From: Candidatus Zixiibacteriota bacterium
Lineage (GTDB): Bacteria; Zixibacteria; MSB-5A5; RBG-16-43-9
Assembly (NCBI GenBank): GCA_022865345.1
Contig: JALHSU010000077.1
Span: 1-45,906 of the forward strand
DNA length: 45,906 nt
Reading direction: 5' to 3'
The position numbers and the translations under genes were made by a program. Positions 9,527 to 13,781 of this stretch are shown one piece after another. Each line of letters opens with the position of its first letter. The first letter of the stretch is position 1. The notes under the pieces are model-generated. The model ran no database searches, was not told the origin of the DNA, and saw only the letters and a program-made list of their open reading frames with translations.

Positions 9527-9581
9527 GTAGGTCAGACATTCCTGTCTGACCTGAATGAACAGACAAGAATGTCTGTTCTAC
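9527..9581. repeat. BIME-like paired palindrome, CAGACA class
   Basis: GTAG, then GTCAGACA, TTCC, TGTCTGAC, a short linker, then GAACAGACA, AGAA, TGTCTGTTC, ending CTAC. Arm 2 read from the minus strand matches arm 1 at the foot, CAGACA and loop. The two differing pairs (GT/AC against AA/TT) are compensated. The right arm supplies an ATG (9569) in frame with the downstream gene. Other copies: 8781-8996, 10737-10946, 20354-20411, 25328-25382, 26048-26097 and 27361-27480. Confidence 0.88.
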
Positions 9582-9622
9582 TAACACCAAAGTTTTCAGA
9601 ATATCTAAAAGGAAGGAATAAA

Positions 9623-10609
9623 ATGAGCACGGTCAGAGATAGAGATCTTCGCCTGTGGCTTCTGGATCGCAGAGATAGACTTAAGACTGCGACAGGAAGA
9701 TTCAAAGATAATGCACAAATCACCCATCTTTTAAAAGAGGTGGATTCAGCGCTTGAGCGTATAGATAACGGCTCTTATGGCCTGTGTGAGGTCTGTCATG
9801 AGCCGATTGAAGAAGAAGCGCTGATCACAGACCCTCTGATCCGGGTATGCCTTGACCACCTCACGCCTGCACAACAGCAGTCGTTGGAGCAGGATTTAAG
9901 CCAGGCTGCGAAAATCCAGGCGAAACTGCTGCCTAACAAAAATGTGAGCATCCCAGGCTGGGATATTTACTATCACTATGAGGCTGCAGGTCCGGTGAGC
10001 GGCGATTACTGTGACCTGGTGGAACTGGGAACAGATAATGAGGATCTATTGTTCGTCTTAGGTGATGTCTCTGGCAAAGGAGTAGCTGCATCTATGCTTA
10101 TGGCAAACCTGCATGCTATCTTTCATAGCCTGGTCTCTGTTGGTTTATCGATCACAGAGATGATGGAGAGAGCTAACCGGCTTTTCTGTGAGAGCACTAT
10201 GTCGACTGACTACGCCACTTTAGTCTGCGGTAAAATAGGTCAATCCGGCGAGATCGAAATCTGTAATGCCGGGCATTTTCCTCCTTTGCTCGTCAGGAAA
10301 GGTGAGATTTCCTATCTGGGTCCAACTGGCTTGCCACTTGGGATGTTCTGCAGCGGTGAGTATACTCTAAATAAACTTTGGCTCTCAGCCGGTGACAGTC
10401 TGTTACTTTACACGGACGGTCTCACAGAGGCACGTAACAAATTGGATTCGGAATACGGTGAGAAAAGGCTGGTCGAGCTGGTCAAGGGTTTTCCTGAACC
10501 TTCTGCCCAAATGCTCACTGAAGCCTGCCTCAAAGACCTGAGGAACTTTTTATCCGGAGCACCTAAGACAGACGATCTCACTATTATGGCGATCCGGCGA
10601 ACTATGTAA
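9623..10609 (+). CDS. DksA/TraR-type zinc finger fused to SpoIIE/RsbU-type PP2C phosphatase
   Basis: 328 residues. The N-terminal part (about 1-80) is a helical hairpin ending in a DksA/TraR-like finger with C55xxC58 and C76xxH79, the fourth usual Cys being His. The rest (about 90-328) is a PPM/SpoIIE phosphatase: AAKIQAKLLP, then SGDYCD with Asp128, LGDVSGKG with Asp148, YTDGLTEA and TDDLTIMAI supply the metal-binding acids. Such phosphatases activate sigma factors by dephosphorylating anti-anti-sigma partners, none of which lies nearby. AAGGAAGGA at 9609-9617 fixes the ATG. An in-frame ATG at 9569 lies inside a repeat and is rejected. The domain pairing is unusual. Confidence 0.88.
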   Translation: MSTVRDRDLRLWLLDRRDRLKTATGRFKDNAQITHLLKEVDSALERIDNGSYGLCEVCHEPIEEEALITDPLIRVCLDHLTPAQQQSLEQDLSQAAKIQAKLLPNKNVSIPGWDIYYHYEAAGPVSGDYCDLVELGTDNEDLLFVLGDVSGKGVAASMLMANLHAIFHSLVSVGLSITEMMERANRLFCESTMSTDYATLVCGKIGQSGEIEICNAGHFPPLLVRKGEISYLGPTGLPLGMFCSGEYTLNKLWLSAGDSLLLYTDGLTEARNKLDSEYGEKRLVELVKGFPEPSAQMLTEACLKDLRNFLSGAPKTDDLTIMAIRRTM

Positions 10610-10610
10610 A

Positions 10611-10725
10611 GGAAGGCTTTAGCCTTCCATTTATTTAATGGGAGCCTAAAGTCTACAATGAAAAAAAAAATCGCGTAGCTGAGCCTTTAGGGCTCAGGTA
10701 CGGAGGTTTAAAACCTCCGCTACGC
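10611..10725. repeat. Degraded and intact GCGGA-class elements
   Basis: GGAAGGCT/AGCCTTCC at 10611-10628 is the left arm of a GCGGA-class element whose right half is decayed. A complete element follows at 10673-10725: GCGTAG foot, CTGAGCC/GGGCTCAG, CGGAGGTTT/AAACCTCCG, CTACGC end. Both lie directly downstream of the phosphatase stop. Confidence 0.7.
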
Positions 10726-10753
10726 ATTATGTTCCGGTAGGGTCAGACATTCT

Positions 10754-10903
10754 GAGGCTGTTGCCAAGGTTTTTCAGGTGATTTTTTTTGTAGGGACAGG
10801 GCTTGTCCCTGTCCTAACCCTAAGACGGACAGCCACAAGGGCTGTCCCTACATTCACGCCTCCTTAATGAATATGGGTTTTCCAGGAATTGAGCAATAGC
10901 CTC
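10754..10903. mobile_element. MITE-like element with GAGGCT(A/G)TTGC terminal inverted repeats
   Basis: GAGGCTGTTGC at 10754-10764 is the inverse of GCAATAGCCTC at 10893-10903 with one mismatch. The 150-bp body has no gene and itself carries a complete BIME (10790-10851). It interrupts the hairpin loop of the 10737-10946 element, which shows it inserted. GAGGCT...TTGC ends resemble terminal repeats of some DDE insertion sequences (from memory, not checked). A target duplication is not clear. Confidence 0.6.
10790..10851. repeat. BIME-like paired palindrome, GGGACAG class
   Basis: The outer stem is GTAGGGACAG / CTGTCCCTAC. Arm 1 is GGACAGGG/CCCTGTCC and arm 2 is GGACAGCC/GGCTGTCC. Arm 2 read from the minus strand differs from arm 1 only where both sides of the stem have changed together. 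A single-unit relative is at 508-536. Confidence 0.85.
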
Positions 10904-11042
10904 TACCTGTCTGGCTTGAGCGAACAGGCAAGGATGCCTGTTCCACCGGTTTTGCAGGAAAATTGGAGTATAAAGCTTTAGCTTTATAAAGGTAAAGCTG
11001 AAGTCTCAAGACCTTGACGGCTTTACACTTCAGAAATCAGGC

Positions 11043-12812
11043 TTACACCTTTTTTAGAGCAAAGCTGAACTCGCTTCCTTTCCCTTCCTGACTTTTCACC
11101 TCAACTTTTCCGCCATGGGCTTCGATTATATGTTTGACTATGGAAAGCCCAAGCCCGGTTCCTCCTGATTCCCGGGAACGTCCTTTATCTACCCGGTAAA
11201 ACCTTTCAAAAATGCGGGGCAGGTCTTTCTGGGGAATTCCGATTCCGTTGTCGATTACCGCAATCTCGACAGATTCCCCTTTATCTTTCGCTTCAATCCT
11301 TATCTTCCCTTTTTCAGGAGTATATTTGATGGCATTATCCACTAAGTTGGTCAAAGCCTGGGTTATCCAATGTCTGTCTGCCAAGACTTTCAGATCAGGT
11401 GATGGAAGGCTGGCTTCCAGAATTTGCGATTTCTCCTCAGATGAGCTTTTGAGAGTTGAGAAAACCTCATCCAAAAGCTCCCTTACAAGGAAAGGTTCAA
11501 TTTTGAGGAGGAAGTCTTTTGATTCAATTCGGGAAAGCTGAAGAAGGTCGGTCACGATTTTATTCATCCTGTCAGCATGCTGGGAGATTATGGATAGAAA
11601 TTGTAGAGATTTTTCAGGGTCGTTAATGGCACCATCTCTCAAAGCTTCCACAAACCCTTTGATGGAAGTCAATGGAGTTCTCAACTCGTGCGAGACATTT
11701 GCCACGAAATCCTTGCGAACCCGCTCTGTTTTCTTGAGTTCGGTGATGTCGTGAAAAACAAAAAGCAGAAAGATGGAGCCTTTTCTTTTCTGCTCCACCA
11801 GTGCGGACTGCACCATAAAATCTTTTTCTTCCGGATGAAAAAAAGAGACTTCTTTTCTTTTCTCCTTGGGGTTTGTCAGAACCTCCTGAATGAATTGATT
11901 AAGTTCCGGATTACGAATTACCTCATAATATGGCTTTCCATAAGTTGCGGAACCCAGATTAAACACCTGACTCAAATTCTTGTTAACTAAAAGAACTCTT
12001 CCAGAAGAGTCCACAGCCAGAACCCCTTCCACCATGCTGGAGAGAATCGAGTCGAGCTGGGATTTTTCCTCACCTATCTGAGCGATCTTCTGTGAAAGCT
12101 CGTCAGACATCTGGTTCAGGATTTCGCCTAACTCTCCAATTTCATCTCTGGTTTTTATCTTTATCCTCTGGGTAAAATCTCCTTTGGACAGCAACTTGCC
12201 TATCTGCATCATCTGGCGCAGGGGTTTGGATACCCGGTTAGCAAACCCGAGGCTCAAGACCAGCGAAAATATGAAGGCTGCAACCAGTCCTAAGAGCACG
12301 ATATTAAATATCCTATTCTGCTGATGTCTCAGCTCGGTCAATGGAAGGGCTAAGCGCGCCACGCCTATTATCTCGCCCTGAAGTTTAATGGGAGAAGCTA
12401 TATAAAGCATCTCCTCCTTTACGGTATAACTATAGCGAATACTCTTTCCAGGCTTATCCTGCAGGGCTGAAGCTACCTCAGGCCTGTTTCTGTGATTCTC
12501 CATACGAAAAAGTGCCTCGCCGCTCTCATACGAATCACCCAGGACCTTACCTTGTTTGTCGATGATGGTAATCCTGCCCTGAATATCTCTGCTGAGCTCA
12601 TCAGTCAAACTATCGATTGTGGCAAGGCTTAAACTGTCACTCAAGGAAGTAGAGAAGATAATAGACAAAAGGTGAGTTTGAGAAAACATACTCTGCTCGA
12701 GTTGAGTCAGGGAGCGTTTTCTCTCAGAAGATGAAATCAAAACACCGGCTAAGGAGAGACCTAATAAACTGACCAGAAGATAAGTCAAAAATAATTTAAG
12801 CTGCATCCTCAT
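11043..12812 (-). CDS. PhoR-type membrane sensor histidine kinase
   Basis: 589 residues. TM1 is about 7-27, a periplasmic sensor region about 28-165 (LSRDIQGRITIIDKQGKVL, single-Cache/PAS-like), TM2 about 168-190 and HAMP about 190-243. A PAS domain covers about 250-355. HisKA has the phospho-acceptor H375 in ANVSHELRTPL, and HATPase_c (about 475-588) has N (LVDNAIKYTP), G1 (DNGIGIP) and G2 (GGTGLGLSI) boxes. It autophosphorylates and passes phosphate to the response regulator encoded 17 bases upstream. The layout matches PhoR. Phosphate sensing is not proved, since the PiT genes lie 28 kb away. Confidence 0.93.
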   Translation of the reverse strand: MRMQLKLFLTYLLVSLLGLSLAGVLISSSERKRSLTQLEQSMFSQTHLLSIIFSTSLSDSLSLATIDSLTDELSRDIQGRITIIDKQGKVLGDSYESGEALFRMENHRNRPEVASALQDKPGKSIRYSYTVKEEMLYIASPIKLQGEIIGVARLALPLTELRHQQNRIFNIVLLGLVAAFIFSLVLSLGFANRVSKPLRQMMQIGKLLSKGDFTQRIKIKTRDEIGELGEILNQMSDELSQKIAQIGEEKSQLDSILSSMVEGVLAVDSSGRVLLVNKNLSQVFNLGSATYGKPYYEVIRNPELNQFIQEVLTNPKEKRKEVSFFHPEEKDFMVQSALVEQKRKGSIFLLFVFHDITELKKTERVRKDFVANVSHELRTPLTSIKGFVEALRDGAINDPEKSLQFLSIISQHADRMNKIVTDLLQLSRIESKDFLLKIEPFLVRELLDEVFSTLKSSSEEKSQILEASLPSPDLKVLADRHWITQALTNLVDNAIKYTPEKGKIRIEAKDKGESVEIAVIDNGIGIPQKDLPRIFERFYRVDKGRSRESGGTGLGLSIVKHIIEAHGGKVEVKSQEGKGSEFSFALKKV

Positions 12813-13686: not shown

Positions 13687-13781
13687 ATCAATAGATATAT
13701 AGAAACCAAAAAACTTTAGCTGGGAGAAAAGTGTGAATAGAGCAAACACGCAAGGTCTACCCCTGCTGATTAATGTTCCCG

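Follow-up and report, generated by a model that had tools for sequence, protein, structure and literature searches.

The window analysed here, a 45,906-nucleotide stretch of Candidatus Zixiibacteriota DNA (contig C77 of the genome designated G000), contains three nested layers at 10737-10947: an outer pair of REP hairpins, a MITE with IS1182-family ends that interrupts the loop of the first of these hairpins, and a second REP pair inside the MITE. The order of insertion is settled; the outer REP pair came first, followed by a MITE that already contained the inner pair. We explain the locus as the result of the mobilisation of this MITE in trans into the loop of the outer REP hairpin, and we assign this explanation as a whole a probability of about 0.88.

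Layout of the locus and order of insertion

The nested element is located between the genes for a SpoIIE-type phosphatase (9569-10609) and a convergently oriented histidine kinase (11043-12812), which are separated by a chain of hairpin repeats (Table 1); another REP pair (GTAGCTGAGCCTTTAGGGCTCAG / CGGAGGTTTAAAACCTCCGCTAC, 10675-10723) is found immediately upstream. An initial annotation, made from the letters of the window, had described a MITE-like element of about 150 bp in the loop of a BIME hairpin and a further BIME within it, and we find all three layers as placed there. The bounds of the insert, given as 10753-10905, exceed ours by one base at the left end and by two at the right. The outer hairpin, correctly described as split by the insert, is at the same time the leading member of a complete REP pair, a role that had gone unmentioned. 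The insert ends, GAGGCTGTTGC on the left and GCAATAGCCTC on the right, are inverted relative to each other, as had been noticed, and are constant across loci. Likewise, the inner element is complete as described, consisting of two inverted GTAG-tagged hairpins with a DNA fold of -18.2 kcal/mol (z -5.0). This arrangement, a GTAG at the foot of each of two inverted hairpins, also holds for the outer pair, in which the right tag is degenerate.

Table 1. Features of the nested element (positions in the window)
Feature	Positions	Strand	Remarks
Outer hairpin 1, left part	10737..10749	+	GTAG tag 10737-10740; arm GTCAGACA 10742-10749; empty ortholog in G001
TTCT, outer tetraloop and left copy of the target duplication	10750..10753	+	Same four bases form the loop at the empty G001 site
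150-bp IS1182-type MITE	10754..10903	+	Inverted ends 10754-10764 and 10893-10903; ends common to complete IS in G004
Inner REP pair (BIME/REPIN-like)	10790..10851	+	Two hairpins, tagged GTAG on the left and CTAC on the right, around a 12-nt spacer; cargo constant among MITE copies
Decayed right-hand copy of the target duplication, TACC	10904..10907	+	2/4 match to TTCT
Right arm of outer hairpin 1, TGTCTGGC	10908..10915	+	Pairs with left arm; G001 empty site
Outer REP pair, hairpin 2 (GAACAGGCAAGGATGCCTGTTC), degenerate tag	10922..10947	+	Kept in G001 and G002; hairpin itself 10922-10943

An unoccupied version of the site exists in G001, a genome of the same genus whose histidine-kinase ortholog is 94% identical to that of the window (93% in G002). 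Downstream of this gene, the orthologous site reads GTCAGACA-TTCT-TGTCTGAC (left side also given as GGTCAGACA), and the orthologous intergenic region, GATAGGTCAGACA-TTCT-TGTCTGACAGCACTGAACAGGCAAGATGCCTGTTCC, comprises the whole outer REP pair with no MITE, its loop having the sequence of the left duplicate in the window. In G002 (L222, contig C21), the loop orthologous to 10750-10753 is occupied by an unrelated insertion of some 20 bp (TGGCTACGCCAGGCTTTGCTC). Searching for the orthologous site via the upstream SpoIIE-type gene yielded close orthologs in G003 and G008 only, with other DNA adjoining. Further contrasts were obtained from a composite search with the flanks of all ten loci that possess both MITE ends. 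Window positions 13740-13763 represent the MITE-free ortholog of an insertion in G002 (L126, contig C21) and read TTGC where G002 has the right duplication. At a site occupied by the MITE in G001 (L149), the corresponding hairpin loop of G002 is filled by another palindromic insert, and at the L125 site G000 has a different REP and no MITE. The empty orthologous site, together with the MITE-free orthologs of other loci, demonstrates that the outer REP pair preceded the MITE; this is the order read from the window in the initial annotation, and the empty site that it had proposed seeking in relatives is present in G001 with its TTCT loop intact.

Ends, cargo and parent element of the MITE

The end pattern of the MITE lineage in G000, G001 and G002 is GRGRCTGTTGCCGAAGTC, the ends also being written GRGRCTGTTGC. 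A genome search for the ends, another check suggested at the outset, showed that they recur in G000 and in the same-genus genomes: exact matches to the left/right end patterns numbered 2/3 in G000, 3/3 in G001, 10/11 in G002, 0 in G003 and 3/6 in G004, while reversed patterns, used as a control, had 0 matches in G000 and its relatives. Besides several partial copies, G000 contains a second full-length copy (L002) on contig C160 with 79% identity, which, together with the recurrence of the ends relative to the reversed controls, argues that the MITE of the window is not a chance arrangement. In one genome per species for 84,980 species (own genome possibly excluded), a 21-base end pattern matched solely Candidatus Zixiibacteriota records. 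Full or partial copies are present in all three same-genus genomes, with many more in G001 and G002 than in G000, as far as copy numbers derived from searches go; several contigs of G002 terminate within a copy, which is what near-identical repeats would lead one to expect. The copies are 115-190 bp long, non-coding and multicopy, with 4-bp target duplications, and the 150 bp of the window MITE leave no room for a transposase gene. Copies with identical layout, with the end sequence TGTTGAAAAAGTC, are also found in G007 and G009, which belong to another family of the order.

A complete IS with these ends, which had likewise been proposed as a check, exists in G004, a genome of the same order. 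It is 1588 bp long (contig C54), has the left end GGGGCTGTTGCCGAAGTCTTT and the right end ATGAGTTGAGCAACAGCCCC, and contains one gene for a 478-aa protein. Each end is identical at 18 of 20 positions to the matching consensus end of the MITE, left and right being distinguishable, and the protein scores 355 bits against the NCBI IS1182 model NF033551 (cut-off 270), in addition to matching DUF772 and DDE_Tnp_1_6. Since both ends match this IS, whose protein passes the IS1182 model, we classify the window element as an IS1182-type MITE. A transposase of the same IS subgroup was not found in G000, G001 or G003, and a DUF772 family search of G000 itself yielded no transposase; as far as a draft assembly can tell, the MITE thus appears to be stranded in G000. 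The IS1182 found in G002 is a different one and contains a stop codon, and fragments are present in G010 and others. The IS1182 elements of G009 and G002 were also considered as partners of the MITE and rejected, as their ends are other or unrecognisable. The G009 element is a further case of an IS1182 in a palindrome: L166 (contig C23), a complete IS1182 with the ends GGGTGTGTCATAAT, lies between the inverted arms TCCCCCTCTCCAC / GTGGAGAGGGGGA.

The initial annotation had left undecided whether the inner BIME was part of the incoming MITE or a later arrival. The position of this BIME relative to both ends is constant in twelve aligned copies, indicating that it arrived with the MITE. One of these copies (L139, contig C94 of G002) retains only remnants, having lost both inner REP hairpins but not the GTAG...CTAC frame and the spacer. 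The inner REP pair also exists in standalone copies (L004, L005) and is thus a repeat in its own right; it presumably entered an internally deleted IS, in which case the IS1182 ends would have been kept while the transposase gene was replaced by a GTAG-type REP pair. Some of the aligned copies contain a further palindromic insert within the loop of an inner hairpin. Such short palindromic repeats (TTGAGC..GCGAAATCC-hairpin; GGTTCGACAAGCTCACCGTCC...GTCGAAGG) were seen in the inner REP loops of L127, L130, L137, L140, L149, L158 and L159, giving the impression that REP loops serve as insertion sites for short elements of several unrelated kinds.

The outer hairpin as insertion target

The ten loci with both MITE ends, from which we left out a pair of contig ends in G002 (L130 and L135, TACG/TACG) whose join is unproven, allowed us to compare the flanks between loci. 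Exact 4-bp duplications are present at five of the ten (L125 TGCG, L127 CCTG, L139 TTCA, L145 CAAG, L137 AGAA), and that of L146 matches at three of four positions (CGGG/TGGG). In the window the duplication has decayed to TTCT/TACC (2/4), and likewise in L002. Across the ten loci, the permutation p for 4-bp duplications is 7e-5. The MITE ends are constant, while the sequences flanking them vary (GTCAGACA / TGTCTGGC, GGGCAGACC / TGTCTGCCC, GGGCGACC / GGTCGCCC, GTCAGACA / TGTCTGAC). As the arms differ between loci (GTCAGACA, GGGCAGAC, GGGCGACC), they belong to the target and not to the element. At loci with both ends, four bases separate the arm from the end of the element, and because these four bases are identical on both sides at five loci, the target duplication corresponds to the hairpin loop. 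At least six of eight arm pairs are in register outside the element at eight of the ten loci, where the target is accordingly an inverted repeat; arms of this quality occur at 0.6% of random positions and at 1.6% of intergenic positions in the window (binomial tail about 2e-13). Shuffling arm partners among loci gave a p of just 0.03, a weak value that reflects the similarity of the REP families. The arms of L126 form 7/8 pairs if slipped, and those of L146, GGGCAGAC/GTCTGCCC, were paired by eye, their spacing being wider and the loop containing additional Gs. In the partial copies L147, L151 and L158, the surviving end is without a clear hairpin.

We propose that an IS1182 transposase, now absent from the G000 assembly, acted in trans to cut out or copy the MITE, whose ends would then have been joined across a 4-bp stagger. 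With a stagger equal to the loop of a REP hairpin, the four loop bases would be duplicated and the arms pushed apart; that the loop bases are indeed duplicated and the arms separated is evident from the unoccupied site in G001 and from the duplications found at further loci. As most insertions with both ends in the genus are found at the tips of REP hairpins, it is probably the palindrome that the transposase reads, whether through its REP sequence or in the form of an extruded or single-stranded hairpin, and we would favour structure over sequence as the basis of recognition. A more far-reaching idea, which we put forward tentatively and consider somewhat unlikely in its entirety, is that the IS1182-group transposase of this Zixiibacteriota genus hits extruded or single-stranded hairpin loops by their structure, so that the two REP hairpins of the MITE would add landing sites with every copy, and element and REPs would mutually build nested hairpins.

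It is conceivable that there is no preference for hairpins at all, that any 4-mer is accepted, and that REP loops prevail since REPs fill the intergenic DNA of the genus and insertions into genes are lost. REP-like repeats are indeed abundant in these genomes, and the copies in G004 reside in AT-rich 4-mers without hairpins. Five MITEs with the same ends are found in G004, which belongs to a different family of the order; each is flanked by an exact 4-bp duplication (ATTA, TTCT, ATAA, ATTT, AAAT; boundaries by eye). The cargo of the MITEs of G004 (L254-L259) is another palindromic repeat, TGTCACCCTGAACGAAGTGAAGGGTC... (also given as TGTCACCCTGAACGAAGTGAAG... / ...CAGAATGACACA); their flanks form no hairpin, and neither, judged by eye, do those of the G004 IS. 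From this contrast it follows that the whole group shares the 4-bp duplication, that the cargo was exchanged and that the hairpin preference is found in the other lineage; the choice of hairpins is not universal within this IS group. We nevertheless consider a complete lack of preference improbable, as the proportion of insertions with arms far exceeds the intergenic background and the duplication coincides with the loop instead of falling on random places in REPs. At the level of sequence statistics, the background of 1.6% speaks for a real hairpin preference in the lineage of G000, G001 and G002.

An agent other than an IS1182 transposase would be a RAYT (REP-associated tyrosine transposase), which could have mobilised the element by treating it as an oversized REP pair. 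The element does contain a REP pair, four Y1_Tnp proteins score above the cut-off in G000, and GTAG hairpins are located near three of five RAYT loci, their sequences being related though not identical. HUH transposases of the RAYT kind, however, are not expected to produce target duplications, the conserved boundaries are IS1182-type ends and not GTAG, and the transposase encoded by the IS that shares those ends is of the DDE type, so that involvement of a RAYT seems very improbable. Least probable of all is that the outer arms are part of one extended MITE of 180 bp, whose inverted ends would be longer, and that no outer hairpin existed beforehand, as suggested by the alignment of L002 with window positions 10737-10913 including the arms (79%) and by the presence of GTAGGGGCAGACC at the left of many copies, but ruled out by the intact hairpin at the empty site in G001 and by the location of the exact 4-bp duplications between arms and ends, and further contradicted by the varying arms at constant ends and by the complete IS and the MITEs of G004, which have the ends without the arms.

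Comparison with known systems

MITEs of the IS1182 family have been described in Methanosarcina acetivorans, where ISMac2-derived elements are 160 bp long and one has 4-bp direct repeats (PMC3852290). The MITE of the window is similar in being a non-autonomous IS1182-family derivative, but it contains a REP pair and is found in REP loops, whereas the passage on the archaeal elements mentions neither REP cargo nor a hairpin target (PMC3852290). Several ISs are known to target REPs or BIMEs, namely IS1397, ISKpn1, IS621, ISPpu9/10 and ISPa11, from the families IS3, IS110, IS4, IS256 and IS5 (PMC1525189). Here, too, REP palindromes are the preferred target; those ISs, however, are complete and not of the IS1182 family (PMC1525189), while in our case a MITE is inserted that has a REP pair inside as well. 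GTAG REPs have been reported from Proteobacteria, Cyanobacteria, Chloroflexi and the PVC group, but not from Zixiibacteriota (PMC3733652). The inner and outer repeats resemble such REPs and REPINs (PMC3733652, PMC3116915) in their tag, their short hairpins and their inverted pairing, and differ from them in that the inner pair moves as cargo between IS ends. In G000, GTAG-tagged hairpins lie near RAYT-type (Y1_Tnp) genes at L161, L163 and L164, in tandem at L164. Our search of the open-access literature returned no IS1182-family MITE in REP loops and none in Zixiibacteriota, which is not proof of novelty.

A parallel in target choice is offered by IS1272 of Staphylococcus, which is placed with the IS1182 family. 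It targets inverted repeats with a short loop irrespective of their sequence, for example with 9-bp arms and a 4-bp interval, yet it replaces the hairpin and leaves no duplication, loop duplication being merely sketched as pathway c (PMC5678879). An inverted-repeat target is common to both systems (in register at eight of ten loci here), but the loci described here retain both arms and have the loop in duplicate, in contrast to the hairpin removal without duplication of IS1272. Thus, while REP-targeting ISs and the targeting of hairpins by their removal were already known, we here have an IS1182-family MITE that keeps the hairpin and duplicates its loop, together with an empty ortholog and a second lineage without this preference. 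The uptake of REP pairs as cargo between IS ends amounts to a route by which REPs can spread without a transposase of their own. Moreover, the same ends being found in hairpins in one lineage and in AT-rich 4-mers in the other provides a natural contrast for asking which part of a transposase reads DNA hairpins.
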